Source of the DNA: Myxococcales bacterium
GTDB lineage: Bacteria > Myxococcota_A > Polyangia > Polyangiales > Houyiibacteriaceae
Length of the DNA stretch: 64,000 nt
NCBI GenBank assembly: GCA_029861865.1
Contig: JAOTYL010000006.1
Location: 124,001-188,000 of the forward strand
Direction of reading: 5' to 3'
Shown here: piece by piece, positions 38,327 to 53,035 of the stretch
Layout of the letters: every line of letters begins with the position of its first letter
How positions within the stretch are numbered: position 1 is the stretch's first letter
Program-made: the position numbers and the translations under genes
Notes under the pieces: model-generated
Databases searched by the model: none
Told to the model about the DNA's origin: nothing
The model's input: the letters and a program-made list of their open reading frames with translations, nothing else

Positions 38327-38456
38327 CAGTGCCAGTGCTAGTGTCAGTGTGCGCGCCAGCGTCCGTGCCAGCGCCAGCGCCAGTGTCAGTGCCAGTGTCA
38401 GTGCCAGTGCCAGTGTCAGTGTCAGTGTCAGTGCCGGTGTCAGTGCCAGTGCCAGC
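38327..38456. repeat. Degenerate hexanucleotide minisatellite, locus 1
   Basis: About 21 tandem units of a six-base motif (consensus CAGTGY, with GCC, GTC and GCG variants) run from 38327 to 38456, ending just before the minus-strand gene end at 38472. Unit length is two codons, so one frame would read as Val-Pro/Ser repeats, but no gene is supported. Confidence 0.85.
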
Positions 38457-38471: not shown

Positions 38472-38828
38472 CTAAACGTCCGCGGCCTGCTGGCACTCTA
38501 GGCAAAACGGTGCCTCGGGTTTGGCGCACAGGCGCCGGTAGCCGATCGGTTCTTCGCACTTGCGGCATAGACCATACTCACCGCGGTCGAAGATGGAGAG
38601 GGCGACCTTGCATTGGGTCAGGCGAAGTTGGGCTTTTTCGCGCGTGGCTTTTGCCATGGCTTGTTGCTGCATCGCGTCCATGCGCGATAGCCGGCCCACC
38701 GTGCTCTGATCGAGCACCACCGGATCTGCCGAGTCCGCGTTGGCGCGCAGGGTGTTTTCGAGCTCGGCGACCAGCTCGACCAGCTGCTCCCGCAAGGTTT
38801 CGGCTTGCTTGTCGGAAAGTTCTTCCAT
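38472..38828 (-). CDS. DksA/TraR-family zinc-finger protein
   Basis: 118 residues. Coiled-coil N-terminal helices (residues about 5-70), then a C4 zinc finger: [26 protein letters not shown], given here only as its first 20 residues' pattern CxxC...CxxC. Such proteins bind the RNA polymerase secondary channel and alter promoter response, with or without ppGpp. The acidic tip pair DxxDA typical of DksA proper is present as [10 protein letters not shown], which is less clear, so TraR-like is safer. It ends next to the repeat at 38456. Confidence 0.8.
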
Positions 38829-38957: not shown

Positions 38958-39956
38958 ATGACGCGCACGAAGAGCTGTCTATTAGTCGTTAGCCTCCTCG
39001 TCTCAGCGTGCGGTGATACCAACACGACCCTCGTCGAGTCGGATGTCGAATGCGGCGCCGGCACCCATCTCGAAGGTCAGCTTTGTGTGCCCGACGAATC
39101 GCTCACTTGTGGCGAAGGCACCCGACAAGTGGGGGACGAATGCGTTCCAGATGAGCGGGAGGCGCCGCAAAGCCGTTACGAAGTTCGGGTCGCCGCCACG
39201 GAGATCTCTTCGGACGGGTATTCGAAGCTGCCTGTGTTTGCGATCGGTACCCTCGCCGACGGGACACCGTCTCAAGAGAACGTTCTGTTCGGCGTGTCGA
39301 GTCCAGGGTTCGGTACGTTTACCGACTCCGTCCGGAAGCTTTCCAACACGGGGGCGACGACCTTCTACACCGCTTGCAACTCGGCCATCTTCCCGGGATG
39401 CGATGGGCCGTTTCAGATCACGCTCGCCCTCGCCAACGCTCCTGAGAGCGTCGTCGCGATGTCTCAGGAGATTCGTCTCGTCGCGCCCGAAGGCGTCGGG
39501 TCCATGGCCGGCTGCGCGGGTGGAGGCAGCGTCCTTTTCCTCGACGGCGATGAGGGAGATTGGGTTCACCCGTGGATCGACACGATCGTCGACACGACTT
39601 GGTCGGTCACCGTGAACCCTGAAGGCGAGCCGGACTTGATCGACTTCTTCTTACGGCCCACCGACCCAGACCAGGGCTCCTCGTGGAACCTGGAGTTCTC
39701 CTCTCAAGAGCTGGGGCAGCCACTGCAGCCTCAGGTCTACGGCGACGCGCAACGCTTTCCATTCGAGGACTTAGGCCGTCCCGGTTTCAACATGTCTGGT
39801 GACGGTCGTGGCTGCAATCAGCTCTGCGCCCGCTATCAGATCCACGAGCTCGAAGTGAATGGCGCTCAGCTCCAGCGATTCGCGGCCACATTCGAGCAGA
39901 ATTGCGAGTGTGGGTCTTCGACGCTTCGTGGTTGCGTCTACTACGAAGCGCTCTAG
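38958..39956 (+). CDS. Lipoprotein with EGF-like Cys cluster
   Basis: 332 residues. Lipobox VSAC (C about 18). Residues about 25-65 hold six cysteines in a pattern such as [33 protein letters not shown], an EGF/TIL-like pair (shown here as 20-residue excerpts only). The rest is beta-rich, with more Cys near the end (GCNQLC, NCECGSS, GC). It looks like an exported structural or binding protein. No family is recognised. It ends by overlapping the convergent oxidase pseudogene by four bases. Confidence 0.5.
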
Positions 39957-40780
39957 CGCAACTTCGATGCGATCAGGTCGGCGCTGATGTCGGCAATCGT
40001 CGGGCAGCCTGCTAGGGCCATGGCGAGGTCGGAGTTTCGTCGCCGACCTCGCTGGCAACGTCGGGCGTCGTCGGCCCGGACGATGCCTTTGACCAGCACC
40101 GGCATGGGAGAGATCGAGCGCAGCCAATCCAAGTCTTTCCAGGAGAGGGAGGCGTCGAGCAGTCGCGCAAAATAGGCCGCCAGACCCGAGTCGCCCTCGG
40201 CGGCGTCCACCCGTGCATAGCCGTCGGCAAGCATGTTCTCGATCCCCATCCCCTCCGGCAACGCGAAACCAGTCTGGATATCTCGCTCCCGACGACCGAG
40301 CAGCGGCGCGTCGACCGTGAGCACCAGAGCCTTGCAGCCCGCCGCGTGCACGCGCTGCACCAGCGCCTCGGTCGCACCACGGTCTCGGTAGACGTAGAGT
40401 TGAAACCAGATGTCGCGCTCGGCCGCGGACACGACCTCTTCGACTCCGGTCGTGCTCAGGGTGCTCAGGACCATCGTCGTTCCGGCCGTGGTTGCGGCGC
40501 GAGCGGTGGCGACTTCGCCGTCCAAATGCGCGAGCTTGTGAAAGGCGGTCGGCGCAACCAACACCGGGAGCTCGAGCTCGCTGCCCAACACGGTCGTCGA
40601 GAGGTTGCGCCGACTGACGTCGACGAGCACTCGGTAGCGGAGGGCGATGTCCTGATACGCGTTCCGGTTGCGGCGCAAGGTGACCTCGTCGTCGGCCCCA
40701 CCGTAGTAGTAACCCCAGGTCATCTCCGACAGCTCACGCTTGGCAAGCGTCTCGAGCGCCATCAGGTTGAGCGCATCCAC
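39953..40780 (-). pseudogene. FMN-dependent alpha-hydroxy-acid oxidase with internal deletion
   Basis: The 275-residue frame matches glycolate oxidase/lactate 2-monooxygenase-type enzymes from residue 1 to about 240 (MTWGYYYGGADDEVTLRRNR, PVLVAPTAFHKLAHLDGE, FQLYVYRDRG, LTVDAPLLGRRERDIQTGF, MPVLVKGIVRADDARR). It then jumps to the family's C-terminal end (DLAMALAGCPTIADI). About 80-95 residues that should lie between, including the catalytic His (SNHGGRQLD) and the FMN-phosphate loop (GGIRxGTDxxKALALGAxAV), are missing. A perfect 10-bp inverted repeat with a 10-base loop (40023-40052) sits exactly at the junction. The gene is in frame but cannot be an active oxidase. Confidence 0.8.
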
Positions 40781-40825: not shown

Positions 40826-40854
40826 ACACTGACACTGGCACTGACACTGGCACT
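40826..40854. repeat. Degenerate hexanucleotide minisatellite, locus 2 (reverse orientation)
   Basis: Five units of the same six-base motif in reverse orientation (ACTGACACTGGCACTGACAC) end at 40854, touching the stop of the minus-strand gene 40853-41245. Confidence 0.8.
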
Positions 40855-41519: not shown

Positions 41520-42383
41520 ATGCGAGAAGGTTTGCCAAGCGGTACGTCGTTCGTGGTTTCGTTTGCACGCGGGCTCGGGGTGGGCGACGAGGTCCTCGAT
41601 CCGGTAGCGAGAGATCTCTTGCCGCCCTGGCTCGGGAGAATGGCCGATGCACCGCGTCGCCTTGGGGGTGCTGCTCCCTTCTATCGCAATGCCTTGCGCC
41701 TGACTTCGCTCGGGCTCATCGATCACGCAGTGCTTCGGACCCAAGCGATCGATACGCACCTCGCCGCGGCGCTTCGATCGGGAGTCGATCAGGTCGTGAT
41801 TCTAGGAGCGGGGCTCGATGCGCGCGCGTGGCGTTTGCCCGCGTTGGAGAGCACCACCGTGTTTGAGGTCGATCATCCAGCGACCCAGCAATACAAGCGG
41901 AGACGCATTGGTAGACGCACACCGCGCGCCGAGGTTCGCTACGTGGCGGTCGACTTCGAAAGAGAGCGGTTTTCAGAACGCCTCGAACGGGCAGGGTTTC
42001 GTTCGGCCGCTCCGAGCATGTGGATCTGGGAGGGCGTCGCAATGTACCTCCCGCTCAGCGCGATTCGCGACACGCTCGAGCAGCTGACCCGGCTTTCGGC
42101 TGCCGGGAGCGAGCTGGCGATGACGTACCGCGTGCCCGGCATGCTTCCGTTCGGCGCTCTCGGACGCGCGGCGATTCCAGCTCTCTTCCAGGCCGCTGGT
42201 GAGCCACTCAAGGGCACCCTCGAGCCAGACCATCTGGCGAGTACCGTCGCGCCTGAGTGGAAAGTCGTTTACGATGATGATGCGCGTGGGTGGCAGAAGC
42301 TCACGGGCTCTGTCGCCGACCCCGCCCGCAGCTTTCTCGGCGAGCGGCTGGCGATCGCGAGGAAGAACATGAAAAAGGCTTAG
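41520..42383 (+). CDS. SAM-dependent methyltransferase (TIGR00027/LCMT-like)
   Basis: 287 residues from ATG 41520. The class I SAM fold is shown by DQVVILGAGLDARAWRL (SAM loop) and the motif VFEVDHPATQQYKR. The start MREGLPSGTSFVV matches the usual N-terminus, whereas 41466 (GTG) and 41472 (ATG) would add 16-18 residues and overlap the divergent metallothionein gene. The methyl acceptor is unknown; several homologues modify carboxylates. It ends overlapping the convergent TPR gene by four bases. Confidence 0.7.
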   Translation: MREGLPSGTSFVVSFARGLGVGDEVLDPVARDLLPPWLGRMADAPRRLGGAAPFYRNALRLTSLGLIDHAVLRTQAIDTHLAAALRSGVDQVVILGAGLDARAWRLPALESTTVFEVDHPATQQYKRRRIGRRTPRAEVRYVAVDFERERFSERLERAGFRSAAPSMWIWEGVAMYLPLSAIRDTLEQLTRLSAAGSELAMTYRVPGMLPFGALGRAAIPALFQAAGEPLKGTLEPDHLASTVAPEWKVVYDDDARGWQKLTGSVADPARSFLGERLAIARKNMKKA

Positions 42384-44119
42384 CGAGACGGGTAGAATCG
42401 CTTCTCGGTCTCGCAGGCTTTCTGGTTTCCGAGACGGCAGGCTGCGCTGACGTCGCGCTTGGCAAGCTCGCTCTCCCCCTTGCGATGGTAGGTCCCGCTT
42501 CTTTCGTAGAGCGCCGTCGCGTCCTTGGGCCGCAGTTTGAGATAGCGAGTCCAATATTCGACGATCTCGTCGAGGCGCTTCTGCTGAAAGAGCACGTGAT
42601 CCAGCCCGCGATATCCCTCGACATTGGTCGGCTCCAGCTCAATCGCCTTCAAATAGTCTTGTTCTGCGAGCTCCAACTCGCCTTCTCGGTCGTACGCCAG
42701 GCCCCTGTACAGGAATGCATGCGCGTAGCGTGGGTGCATCTGAAGCACGCGTGTGTATTCGACGATCGCCTCGTCGATCTTGCCGGCCTCCCCTTTTTCG
42801 TAGGCAGCTCTCACCAGCATGGCGAGGATGTGGTGAAGGTTCCTTTCGGCGTGTCCATTGACCGGGTCGAGCCGCGTGGCGAGCACGTAGTCTCGGGCTG
42901 CTTCGTCGTAGCGTTCGGCTTTGAAGAACGCATAGCCCCGACCGTTCAGGGACCTCACGCTTTGCGGAAGGATGTCGAGGGCTTGGCTGAACATGTCGAC
43001 AGCGTCGTCGTAGCGTTCGAGCTCGGTTAACGCGACACCTTTCGCCGATAAGAAGGCCGCATGAGCACCGTGGTCGAGCGCCCGGTTGCAGTAGCCCAGC
43101 GCCTTGTGAGGCTTCTTCTCCGCAAGAAGTTGGCATCGGTCGAGGTCCGCGAAACCGAGCAGCTGCCGGAGTTTCGGATTCTTATCGGTATACTGCCAGT
43201 CCGCTGCTTTGCGCTCCATGAGTTCGTACGAGCCGCCCCAACGAGGTTCGATCTTCATGAGATACGTGCCCCGGATGCCGAAACAGTATGGACAGTGGCG
43301 AAGACCGTCCTCGAGGATCTTGGTTTTCGTGACGACGTCCGCATTGAAGCCCGTCGCCAACCTGAGCCGCGTGCTCCATGCTTCCACTAGATCCGGGTGT
43401 AGCTCGAGCGCGCGGTCCACGTCGGCGGCGGCGGGCTGCAAGATCTTTCGCATCTTCTTAAATCGCTTCTTGGAGGTCAGATAGCCCCATTTTCCGCCGC
43501 GGTAGTGCCAGGCAAGCGAGATCTTGTGCTCCGCTCGGGCGAGGTATGGGGCGAAGGAGTTGGGAGTCGCTTCCACCCAGTGGTCGATCGCATTGCCGAT
43601 GTCTCGGTCAGCGGTCGAGAAAGCCCCCATGGCCACCGCGATCCACCACTCATTTCGAAAATCTTCCTCGAATGCTGACTGAAACGACTCGATGTGCGCG
43701 GACAGCTCTTCGAAGCGCTTCTCGCGCAGGAGGCTCAGGAGCGTGAGCTTATCCGGAAGATCCTTCGGGTATCCGTACTCGTCGGTTCCCTTGCGTCCGA
43801 GCATGATCGTCCCTTTGTGTCCGAGGATGCCTGGTAACGCAGCGACGACTTGACCGACCTCCGGCTCCGTAGGGCCGTCTGCTTCGATGCGGGCCTGCAG
43901 TCGGTCAAAGTAGACATAGATCCCTCCCACGAGGCCGCCTAGCACCAGGACCGACAGGGACATCACGAGTGCGACGGTCGCTTTGGACGGCAATCCATTC
44001 GCTGTTGGCTCAGACGGCGTTTGGCCGCGTCGGCAAACGATGCATCCCGAGTCAACAGTCGGATCGTAGATCAGCCCGTGCTCCTCACATCGGACGCGGT
44101 TTGTCGGACCATCGCTCAT
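42380..44119 (-). CDS. Membrane-anchored TPR protein
   Basis: 579 residues from ATG 44119 (GGGGGAC ribosome site), after a possible longer start at 44173. N-terminus has CxxH/CIVC-type zinc-ribbon-like pairs (CEEHGLIYDPTVDSGCIVC), then one helix near residues 48-70, then about a dozen helical repeats of TPR type (AFLSAKGVALTELERYDDAVDMF, YAHAFLYRGLAYDREGELELAEQDYLKAI). It probably assembles a protein complex at the membrane. Convergent with the methyltransferase. Confidence 0.65.
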   Translation of the reverse strand: MSDGPTNRVRCEEHGLIYDPTVDSGCIVCRRGQTPSEPTANGLPSKATVALVMSLSVLVLGGLVGGIYVYFDRLQARIEADGPTEPEVGQVVAALPGILGHKGTIMLGRKGTDEYGYPKDLPDKLTLLSLLREKRFEELSAHIESFQSAFEEDFRNEWWIAVAMGAFSTADRDIGNAIDHWVEATPNSFAPYLARAEHKISLAWHYRGGKWGYLTSKKRFKKMRKILQPAAADVDRALELHPDLVEAWSTRLRLATGFNADVVTKTKILEDGLRHCPYCFGIRGTYLMKIEPRWGGSYELMERKAADWQYTDKNPKLRQLLGFADLDRCQLLAEKKPHKALGYCNRALDHGAHAAFLSAKGVALTELERYDDAVDMFSQALDILPQSVRSLNGRGYAFFKAERYDEAARDYVLATRLDPVNGHAERNLHHILAMLVRAAYEKGEAGKIDEAIVEYTRVLQMHPRYAHAFLYRGLAYDREGELELAEQDYLKAIELEPTNVEGYRGLDHVLFQQKRLDEIVEYWTRYLKLRPKDATALYERSGTYHRKGESELAKRDVSAACRLGNQKACETEKRFYPSR

Positions 44120-44216
44120 CGTCGTCCCCCAATTTATCCACTTCAGGATCGAGCAATGGGAACGGCGAGGCAAATTTGGACCAGGCCTACAAGGCCGCCC
44201 TGCTGTACCGTCGGCG

Positions 44217-46053: not shown

Positions 46054-46102
46054 AGGCAGAAAGCGTATCGCCGCCACCACGTCTTCCGCAAGCCCCTGCT
46101 AC

Positions 46103-46202
46103 CAGTGTCAGCGTCAGTGCCAGTGTCAGTGACAGTGCCAGTGTCAGCGTCAGTGACAGTGTCAGCGTCGGTGCCGGTGATAGCGCCGGTGTCAGCGTCA
46201 GT
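46103..46202. repeat. Degenerate hexanucleotide minisatellite, locus 3
   Basis: About 17 units of CAGTGY-type motif (GTGTCA, GCGTCA, GTGACA variants) between the hotdog-like gene start and the prs stop (46221). The repeat occupies most of this 167-base spacer. Confidence 0.85.
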
Positions 46203-48972: not shown

Positions 48973-49884
48973 ATGGATTTGAAGATCTTTGGCGCGGTTT
49001 TGATCGGAGCGCTTGTAGGGTGCGGCGGAAGCGCAGTGGACGGGACCGATGGAGGCGTCCCGGATGGCTCGCTTCCCGACGGTGGCTCGCCGGCAGCGTC
49101 TTCGCTGGTCGTCGATGTGGACTGGTTGAAGGCGAACCTCGGCGACCCGAATCTGCAACCCGTCGACACGCGCGGCGCGCCCGCATTCGCAGCGGGTCGA
49201 ATCCCGGGCGCGATCCGTCTCAGGCCGGAGCAGCTCGCGATGAGCGACGGAGACGTCCCCTCGCAGGTGGCCTCCCCAGTGCTTGCCGAGCCAGTGCTAG
49301 GGGACGCCGGCCTTCGCAACGGATCGACTGCCGTGGTGTACGGCGAGTTCCCCGAATACGACCCCGCACGCGTCGTGTGGACGCTCGAGTATTACCGACA
49401 CGGGGATGTTCGCTATCTCGACGGAGGATATGCTGCGTGGCTGGACGCGGGCGGAACGGTAGACAACGAGCCCTCCAACGTGGAAGCTACCGATTACACG
49501 ATCATGGATCTAAACGAGAACGTTCGAGTAACCGGGGATTGGGTGCTTTCGCAGCTCGGTGACGCGCCCTACGACATGCCGTCGATTCAGCTGGTCGACG
49601 CGCGGTCTCTCGCCGAATACGAAGCGGGTCGAATTCCTACCGCTCGCCACGTGCAATGGACCGCCAATCTAGAGGCGGGTCTCCTTCGACCGGTGGCCGA
49701 GATCGAAGCGCTTTATGCGGGCCTGGATCCCTCCGCGCCTACGGTGACCTATTGTCAGACTGGATGGAGGGGTTCGTTCGCTTGGTTGGCGCTTACCTAT
49801 ATTGGCTACGAAGACGTGCGGCTCTACGACGGATCCTGGGCGGAGTGGGGCAATGGCAATGGGACATTCCCGGTAGAGCAGTGA
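48973..49884 (+). CDS. Lipoprotein tandem rhodanese (sulfurtransferase)
   Basis: 303 residues. Lipobox ALVGC. Two rhodanese domains: the first (about 50-160) keeps VDTRGAPAFAAGRIPGAI but has no Cys in the active loop (VVYGEFPEY); the second (about 195-300) has the active Cys in TYCQTGWRGS. It would move sulfur from a donor to a thiol acceptor in the periplasm. TAGAGT at 48961-48966, six bases before the ATG, may be a leaderless -10 box. The stop lies within the first unit of the downstream hexanucleotide repeat. Confidence 0.85.
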   Translation: MDLKIFGAVLIGALVGCGGSAVDGTDGGVPDGSLPDGGSPAASSLVVDVDWLKANLGDPNLQPVDTRGAPAFAAGRIPGAIRLRPEQLAMSDGDVPSQVASPVLAEPVLGDAGLRNGSTAVVYGEFPEYDPARVVWTLEYYRHGDVRYLDGGYAAWLDAGGTVDNEPSNVEATDYTIMDLNENVRVTGDWVLSQLGDAPYDMPSIQLVDARSLAEYEAGRIPTARHVQWTANLEAGLLRPVAEIEALYAGLDPSAPTVTYCQTGWRGSFAWLALTYIGYEDVRLYDGSWAEWGNGNGTFPVEQ

Positions 49885-49973
49885 CAGGGGCAGTGGCAGG
49901 GTCAGGGACAGCGTCAGTGCCAGTGTCAGTGACAGTGTCGGTGTCAGGGCCAGTGCCGGTGCCAGCGACGGTG
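49879..49973. repeat. Degenerate hexanucleotide minisatellite, locus 4, filling an intergenic spacer
   Basis: About 15-16 units of the CAGTGY-type motif run from the last codons of the rhodanese gene (CAG TGA is the first unit) to the GTGATG that holds the next ATG. The entire spacer is repeat. Confidence 0.85.
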
Positions 49974-52900
49974 ATGCTGGTGGGTGCCTTGTTGTTGGGG
50001 TTTCCTGCCTCCACTGCCGCTCATTCGGCAGATGCCGTGGGCGGTGGTTTCGCCGATTCTGGGGTTCTCGGGGCCTATTACGCCAACACCGAGCTCGAGG
50101 GCGCGCCGGCGTTTACGCGGCGTGATGTTCGGATCGATTTCGATTGGGGCGACACGCTGCCCGTCGGGGGTTCGTCGGCGGAGCCCTTTCGATCATTTCC
50201 AACCGATCGGTTTTCGGTGCGTTGGACCGGTCGCATTCTGGCGCGGTTTGGTGAGCCGTACACGTTCGTGGGCGAGGCCGACGATGGGATTCGCATCAAG
50301 CTGAAAAAGCCCGACGACTCCGAGTGGACAATCCTTGTCGACCGTTGGAGCGAACCGGGAGCGTTCGAGTCGATACCGGCTCAGCTGGTAGCGGGGCAGC
50401 CCTACGACATCGAGGTCGAGTACCGCGAAACCAAAGGCAACGCCCGTTGCATTGTGTCGTGGCAGAGCCCGAGCACCCCGCGCGAGGTGATCGATCCCGT
50501 CACTCAGCAGGCGCTCAATGCGGCGTCGTTCGTCAGCTATATCTGGGCGGACCTGATGAAGACGGCACGCTACGGTGCGCAGCGGGAATCGGTCGACGAT
50601 CATGGCTGGCCCACACGGAACGGGACCGAGCTCATCATGATGGAGATGAGCTCGGAAGACCGTGAGCTCAGCGGAACCTATTTGATACGCTTCAAGGGCC
50701 AGGCCCAACTGCGCCAGGCCTGTTGTGGCAACCCGCCTCTTTTCCGGGCGGGGGGCGCTCAGTTCGAACGTACGCTTCCAGCGGGCGCCGGTTACGATTC
50801 TTCGAGCAATACGACTTCAGCAACCATGAAGGCCCGCGGGTCCCGAACGATGCTGTTCTTCGAGAACGCTTCGCGCGGCGGAGAGAGTCGGCGAGCGGGA
50901 GTCACCCAAATAAAGCTCATGAGGCCGTTGGCGCCCGGCAGCGATCAACATCATGCGTCCGACGAAATCGTGTACCGACCTTTCAAGGCGATCGTGCAAG
51001 ACAACTTCACGGCCGTACGCTGGCTCGAAGGCGCTAACGAGAAGACCGAAAAAGAATGGTCCGGTCGAGCTCTTCCAGGCGACGCCTTCTTTCAAAGCAG
51101 CCTCGGCCAGGAGAATTGGGAGTACCTGGTCATGCTCGCCAACGAGACCGGAGAGGACCTGTACCTCACGACTCCCATTGCAGCCGACGATGCGTACTTC
51201 GAGAAGCTCGCGCTCCTGTTGCGCTACGGGTCCGACGGCAAGGAGCCTTATCGTGAGTCTACGCCGAATCCGATCTATCCTCCCTTGAACCCAAACCTAC
51301 GAGTCTATGTCGAAGTCGGAAACGAGATCTGGAATTGGGTATTCGGCTCTACGAGCCTGGCGCAGAGTCTAGCGGCGGGTGAAGCCGAACGAGATTCGTC
51401 GACCTGGGCGGCAATGAGCTATGACGGAGATGTAGGAGAAGCCAATGGGATCCGTGCCGTTCGCCGTTGGCACGCATTGCGCACCGTGGCCTGTAGCAAT
51501 GCGTTTCGTCGGGTGTGGGGTGACGAGGCGATGGGCCCCCGCGTCCGGATGCTCCTCGAGTACCAGTACGACAACTTTCAGAGAACGGCGAGCTCGTCAC
51601 TGCATTTTCTAGACGAGTACTTCGGCAATCGCACCAAAGCCAATGTGATCGACCCTCACCCGCCGAGCTACTATCTGTGGGGCGCCGGGGGCGCGACATA
51701 CTACGGCCTGGCGAACAAGACCGGGGTCCAGACGCACACGGTCGTCCGCGACCCTAGCTTCGAGGCGCCGGCCATCGCATCCAAGTCGCGGGTGCTCACT
51801 CCGTCGGGCTCGGCATGGGCCTTCAAGGGCACCGCCGGCGTCGTTCGGCCCACCGGAGATGGCCGTATCAAGGAGCTCGACGAGCCCGCGAAGCCGAAAA
51901 GCGGGCGGCAGGCTGCTTTCATCTTGGGCAACGGCTCGATCGCACAACGCATCCGATTTGCCAAGCCGGGAAACTACGCGATCGCGTTCAACGCCGCGGG
52001 GTCCGGGGATGGATGGCCCGGTCATCTGCGCTTCGACATCTACGTCGATGAGGTCAAGGTCAGCCCACGAAGTCAGAGCGACATTCGTATCGCCGAAGAT
52101 AGATGGAATTTGAGGGGGTGGACCCGTGAGATCGACAGCCTTGAGGAGGAGTGGGGTAGTGCTGTGTTTCGCATCGATCGACCGGGTGAACGAACCATTC
52201 GGTTCGTCGGCCGGGGCGGCAAAGACTACGTTTTGCTCGACGACATCCGGATCTCGAGCGCCGATGCGATCCTAGAGAGCGGGTTTGATGCGGGCGAGGC
52301 GGAAGGCCAAGTCGGTGACTCCAACCTCGCCAAGCAGTTCCGGCAGCAGTCCAAGTATGCGCGAACCTTCGGGCTTCAGGTCGTTGCCTATGAAGCCGGC
52401 TGGTCTGTAGGAGGAGACTTCCACCAGATTCCGCTCCAGAACTGGTGCAAGCTCAAAGATGACCGAGCGCGAAAGATCAACGATCGCATGATCGATCTCT
52501 GGGACGAGTCCGGCAGTTTCATGAACGTGTGGGGCGTCTATCGATACTGGCCCAACTACGACCTCGCGCATGCGGCCACCTATCCGATCATGCGGAGCCT
52601 CAACGCCGCTTCACGGAGCCTTCGTCGGGAGGCGACCTATGGTCAGACGTTGCCCGCTACGCTCCGCACCAAGGATGCCGACTGGAAGCATGTTTCCAAG
52701 GGCGCCGGGAACGCGTCGTGGTGGCTTCGCTACTTGCCGTGGGCCGATAAGAGCGGCGGAAGCGAATGGTTCAGCTGGATGTTGATTGCGCCGTCGACTC
52801 GAGAGTACTCGATCCAAGTCCGTGCCGAGGGCGAAGGATCCCTCGTCGTCGAAGTCGATGGAGAAGCGGCGATGCGCTTTGAGCCGGTTAGTCCGCCGCT

Positions 52901-52997
52901 CGCGCCCCTCAGATTGCGCCTAACGAAAGGGGCGCATGCCATCCGGGTGGTCATCACGGGAGATGTCGAGCTTCAAAGCGTCGACATCTCCCCTTGA
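49974..52997 (+). CDS. Secreted PA14-domain, glycosidase-like protein
   Basis: 1007 residues from ATG 49974, giving a signal peptide (LVGALLLGFPASTAAHS); a longer frame reads into the repeat and is rejected. Residues about 25-170 form a PA14 carbohydrate-binding domain (GVLGAYYANTELEG, FRSFPTDRFSVRWTGRI). The middle has a TIM-barrel glycosidase-like core with candidate acid/base E451 (YVEVGNEIWNW) and nucleophile E807 (VVAYEAGWS), as in clan GH-A. C-terminal beta domains (VEVDGEAAM) may bind sugar. The glycan target is unknown. Confidence 0.7.
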   Translation: MLVGALLLGFPASTAAHSADAVGGGFADSGVLGAYYANTELEGAPAFTRRDVRIDFDWGDTLPVGGSSAEPFRSFPTDRFSVRWTGRILARFGEPYTFVGEADDGIRIKLKKPDDSEWTILVDRWSEPGAFESIPAQLVAGQPYDIEVEYRETKGNARCIVSWQSPSTPREVIDPVTQQALNAASFVSYIWADLMKTARYGAQRESVDDHGWPTRNGTELIMMEMSSEDRELSGTYLIRFKGQAQLRQACCGNPPLFRAGGAQFERTLPAGAGYDSSSNTTSATMKARGSRTMLFFENASRGGESRRAGVTQIKLMRPLAPGSDQHHASDEIVYRPFKAIVQDNFTAVRWLEGANEKTEKEWSGRALPGDAFFQSSLGQENWEYLVMLANETGEDLYLTTPIAADDAYFEKLALLLRYGSDGKEPYRESTPNPIYPPLNPNLRVYVEVGNEIWNWVFGSTSLAQSLAAGEAERDSSTWAAMSYDGDVGEANGIRAVRRWHALRTVACSNAFRRVWGDEAMGPRVRMLLEYQYDNFQRTASSSLHFLDEYFGNRTKANVIDPHPPSYYLWGAGGATYYGLANKTGVQTHTVVRDPSFEAPAIASKSRVLTPSGSAWAFKGTAGVVRPTGDGRIKELDEPAKPKSGRQAAFILGNGSIAQRIRFAKPGNYAIAFNAAGSGDGWPGHLRFDIYVDEVKVSPRSQSDIRIAEDRWNLRGWTREIDSLEEEWGSAVFRIDRPGERTIRFVGRGGKDYVLLDDIRISSADAILESGFDAGEAEGQVGDSNLAKQFRQQSKYARTFGLQVVAYEAGWSVGGDFHQIPLQNWCKLKDDRARKINDRMIDLWDESGSFMNVWGVYRYWPNYDLAHAATYPIMRSLNAASRSLRREATYGQTLPATLRTKDADWKHVSKGAGNASWWLRYLPWADKSGGSEWFSWMLIAPSTREYSIQVRAEGEGSLVVEVDGEAAMRFEPVSPPLAPLRLRLTKGAHAIRVVITGDVELQSVDISP

Positions 52998-53035
52998 AGC
53001 GACTGCATCGCCACGGGGTGGGCCCGTCAGAGCGA

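Follow-up and report, generated by a model that had tools for sequence, protein, structure and literature searches.

Illegitimate recombination has been proposed as a major source of the small variable segments of bacterial genomes, about 10% of which are flanked by direct repeats (PMC2884548). Bacterial pseudogenes formed by deletion between short direct repeats share several features with the locus described here, namely an 8-bp repeat at one deletion (D1), deletions of around a hundred base pairs, and an accessory gene as the target. The locus differs from them in that two neighbouring deletions jointly restore the reading frame. Another related system is quasipalindrome template switching, known in Escherichia coli (PMC7202029). 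Mutations of this type resemble the present case in combining a perfect short inverted repeat and a short loop at the junction, whereas here the arms are native sequence and an inserted inverted copy is unnecessary. As for the protein itself, its first ~240 and last 25 residues align readily with the PF01070 family (e.g., spinach glycolate oxidase, 1gox, and bacterial lactate oxidases), but residues ~242-335 are missing except for a frame-shifted island, together with the catalytic His/Arg pair and the FMN-phosphate loops.

In the window (the whole stretch of DNA analysed, 64 kb), the truncated FMN-dependent alpha-hydroxy-acid oxidase ORF lies at 39953-40780 on the minus strand, begins with GTG, and encodes 275 amino acids. 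The initial annotation had described a shortened oxidase with a frame open through the junction, and this description holds, as the 275 codons run without interruption to the family C-terminal tail. In a profile search, the PF01070 match covers only positions 1-236 of 350, and the full (beta/alpha)8 FMN_dh domain is thus absent, while alignment with relatives identifies the final 25 residues as the family tail. The N-terminal motifs YY, FQLYVY, LTVDAP, GRRERD, and LVKGI are all present (29-sequence alignment). The ORF stop codon overlaps by four bases (39953-39956) that of a convergent 332-aa lipoprotein-like ORF (38958-39956, plus strand).

A full-length orthologue is found in the congeneric genome G018 (listed as L002; L007 is the same record, so that the close orthologue amounts to n=1). 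It lies in the same orientation, shares its upstream flank with the truncated copy, and aligns over its full length with the PF01070 family. The comparison with an orthologue, which the initial annotation had called for, therefore allowed the loss to be measured base by base: the orthologue has 360 codons (1083-bp CDS, against 828 bp here), and the total loss is 255 bp (85 codons). Protein identity over the retained 5′ part is 92%. Since a close copy is present in only 1 of the 18 other genomes of the genus, the oxidase gene is accessory in this group. The locus is probably a gene for an FMN enzyme of the glycolate/lactate oxidase type that was inactivated recently, when two small illegitimate deletions removed these 255 bp from its last third.

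Three blocks, not two, make up the alignment with the orthologue: a 5′ part, then a short island, then the tail. The retained 5′ part (40059-40780, minus strand) comprises codons 1-240 and two bases of codon 241, shows 86-88% DNA identity with the orthologue, and covers the barrel from beta strand 1 to about strand 5. It ends at D1, a 95-bp deletion. The orthologue carries an 8-bp direct repeat, GCCCGACG, at CDS positions 715 and 810, and a single copy is left here, at the junction (40059-40066, minus strand), as found for deletions between short direct repeats. A direct repeat of at least 8 bp occurs at 0.07% (0.0007) of random breakpoint pairs located 60-200 bp apart. This repeat, absent from the initial annotation, says more about the origin of the loss than the hairpin does. 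The second deletion, D2, removed ~160 bp (orthologue CDS ~846-1005), with its junction at 40030/40031 on the minus strand. This position was set against one orthologue rather than the immediate ancestor, and because the ancestral sequence around D2 is unavailable, the breakpoint is uncertain by ~6 nt; against this single orthologue, which is not the true parent, D2 shows no clear direct repeat. The sequence resumes at orthologue CDS position 1006 with the retained 3′ tail (39953-40030, minus strand; DLAMALAGC..., 25 codons and the stop), which has 82% DNA identity with the orthologue.

Between the two deletions, a native island of ~28-36 nt survives (TTGCCAGCGAGGTCGGCGACGAAACTCC, 40031-40058, minus strand). 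It corresponds to orthologue CDS ~818-845, where it forms the codons of VAAEVGDE, and it is now translated in a shifted frame as residues 242-250, CQRGRRRNS. Its first 22 nt match the segment lost from the gene at 18 positions, a score equalled by 2 of 20,000 random 22-mers. The claim of a clean internal deletion joining residue ~240 to the final 25 residues must therefore be revised: both ends and the open frame are as claimed, but the congeneric full-length gene reveals two deletions (95 and ~160 bp) and, between them, the native island read out of frame. A single deletion accompanied by an inverted copy was considered and rejected, as the identity of the island with the lost segment continues beyond both edges of the hairpin arm discussed below. 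A three-deletion reading near D2, invoking 11 additional nt between CGA repeats, looked less simple by eye and was dropped.

Each deletion length, 95 or 160, shifts the frame, while their sum is a multiple of three and restores that of the tail, which is a one-in-three chance. When the deletions are applied singly to the orthologue, the frame left by D1 continues beyond the usual end and that left by D2 meets a stop at codon 301, which says nothing of the order of the deletions. In the proposed scenario, D1 would have fused the two GCCCGACG copies, as replication slippage or short-homology end joining would do. D2 would have taken out most of the rest, leaving ~28 nt of native island, and the compensating lengths would have put the original tail back in frame by chance. 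The gaps may have arisen together or one after the other.

The inverted repeat reported in the initial annotation is present and perfect: two 10-bp arms, GCGAGGTCGG and CCGACCTCGC, separated by a 10-nt loop within 40023-40052. The first arm (40043-40052, minus strand) lies inside the native island. The second (40023-40032, minus strand) consists of two bases beside the D2 junction, followed by GACCTCGC from the native tail (codons D-L-A). As one arm is part of the island and the other is mostly native tail, the hairpin is best read as a product of the deletions; it would have arisen when D2 placed island and tail 10 nt apart, and it appears to be a by-product rather than a demonstrated cause. 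What had been interpreted as a hairpin marking the junction is thus the retained island of the gene itself. Palindrome-mediated deletion, also put forward initially, would require the parent sequence to carry an inverted repeat where the deletions end; the arms are native sequence and the pair is absent from the G018 orthologue (one orthologue, not the true parent), so that this mechanism finds no support as far as that orthologue can tell. For a whole gene, such a hairpin is unremarkable: 3% of Markov-1 surrogates of the gene contain at least one (perfect 10-bp arms, loop of 3-20 nt), and comparable hairpins recur at a few separate sites across the window. Finding one in the 60 bp at the junction is less expected (0.06% of 60-nt surrogates, or ~0.4% for 60 bp at the junction by a hand estimate from the window's own density), these figures applying to a position noticed after the fact. 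The locus is a useful reminder that a hairpin seen where a deletion was joined may have been created by the deletion itself.

Alignment with 27 relatives places SNHGGRQLD, DGGIRRGTD, and GRP in the lost part. The first, present in the orthologue and the relatives and deleted here, contains the His that serves catalysis in the glycolate oxidase family and its substrate Arg; DGGIRRGTD and GRP, the FMN-phosphate loops (DGGxRRGTD and GRP), are likewise present in the orthologue and deleted here. The loss of the catalytic His and of the FMN-phosphate site, which had been predicted from this sequence, is thereby confirmed. A search for the missing bases, also suggested at that stage, was carried out at the protein and DNA levels, and in the rest of the genome it returned only distant matches to the lost segment (best E 7e-7, 38% identity). 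Judging from the alignment, a protein made from this ORF would be missing strands 6-8 of the barrel as well as the catalytic His/Arg motif and the FMN-phosphate loops. With about five barrel strands and a tail helix, it would be expected to have no activity and probably to be unstable. An intact frame is no guarantee of a working gene, nor of a cleanly deleted one.

The retained codons have a dN/dS of 0.108 (pairwise, against the G018 orthologue), and the branch length over the retained columns is 0.041 here, against 0.059 for the intact orthologue; relaxed selection on the truncated copy, looked for as excess branch length, was not detected in these columns. The low dN/dS mostly reflects the time before the loss, although it could also fit a constrained short product. 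As the intact orthologue has evolved at least as fast as the retained part, the loss looks recent, or else an artefact.

The last of these possibilities, an assembly or library artefact in which the gene is full length in the organism and the join in the contig is chimeric, would account for the retained part showing no decay and for the junction not being found in a second genome (18 congeners and viral contigs searched). Nevertheless, it is quite improbable. The D1 join relies on just 8 bp of identity in unique sequence, and in both k-mer and overlap assembly, such an identity is far too short for the assembler to collapse, which makes a misjoin at the repeat unlikely. Two separate joins in one gene would also be needed, the missing part is on no other contig, and assembly quality is good (4.2 Mb in 23 contigs, with completeness 100 and contamination 0.14). 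The shortness of the identity, the need for two joins, and the assembly quality therefore favour a real loss. A real loss might still have been a single complex replication event, in which serial template switching moved from the repeat first to the island and from there to the tail, possibly aided by the hairpin and perhaps homogenising both arms. Both gaps lie within ~30 nt of each other in the truncated copy, the hairpin spans the D2 junction, and quasipalindrome template switching is known in E. coli (PMC7202029). Moreover, one tail Leu codon is two bases off the orthologue (CTC here, TTG in the orthologue), as arm copying would give. However, CTC accounts for 13 of the 32 Leu codons in the truncated gene, more than any other, and the relatives L010 and L011 have it at that residue too, so that arm copying is unnecessary; furthermore, the island identity extends outside the arm, and the orthologue has no inverted repeat. 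The template switch proposed in the initial annotation is thus not needed to explain the arms, for which native sequence suffices, and is possible but unlikely as the origin of the whole rearrangement.

It is even conceivable that the two compensating deletions yielded a shorter protein that selection maintains for a new function, such as a partial barrel serving as partner or regulator, given that the ORF is open and that the pairwise comparison shows constraint on the retained codons. This is very improbable: three barrel strands were lost along with the residues for catalysis and the cofactor, the short form occurs in no relative examined, and the frame would survive in one case out of three without selection. 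We therefore infer an ordinary recent pseudogene, generated by two small deletions. Such a single case matters little, as an accessory metabolic gene would have lost its active site through ordinary short deletions.

The locus lies in what appears to be a rearranging stretch (38.1-53.0 kb), since several other gene-order breaks relative to G018 are found there; the 38 kb to the left are colinear, and in the other sequence aligned to G018 (~57 kb), the largest indel is 40 bp. A putative DksA/TraR-like zinc-finger gene, named from its sequence (38472-38828, minus strand; L057, 2149-2502), is downstream of the oxidase here and upstream in G018, where it adjoins a shortened lipoprotein-like gene and itself seems frameshifted. 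The corresponding position in G018 contains no DNA match to the lipoprotein-like gene at 38958-39956 (plus strand), and a tetratricopeptide-like repeat protein gene (42394-44120; ORF 42380-44173) is missing at the corresponding place. The same is true of ~3 kb at 49885-53032, with a long ORF (within 49656-52997) that passes through an array of the hexamer CAGTGY. Arrays of this hexamer, mostly intergenic, occur at 38327-38455, 40827-40854, 46102-46202, and 49879-49973. Three arrays are located at gene-order breaks relative to G018 (38139/38472, 46096/46221, and 49885/53032). The present genome has 295 occurrences of three consecutive CAGTGY copies, and four congeners have 8, 28, 74, and 167; these frequently lie at contig ends.
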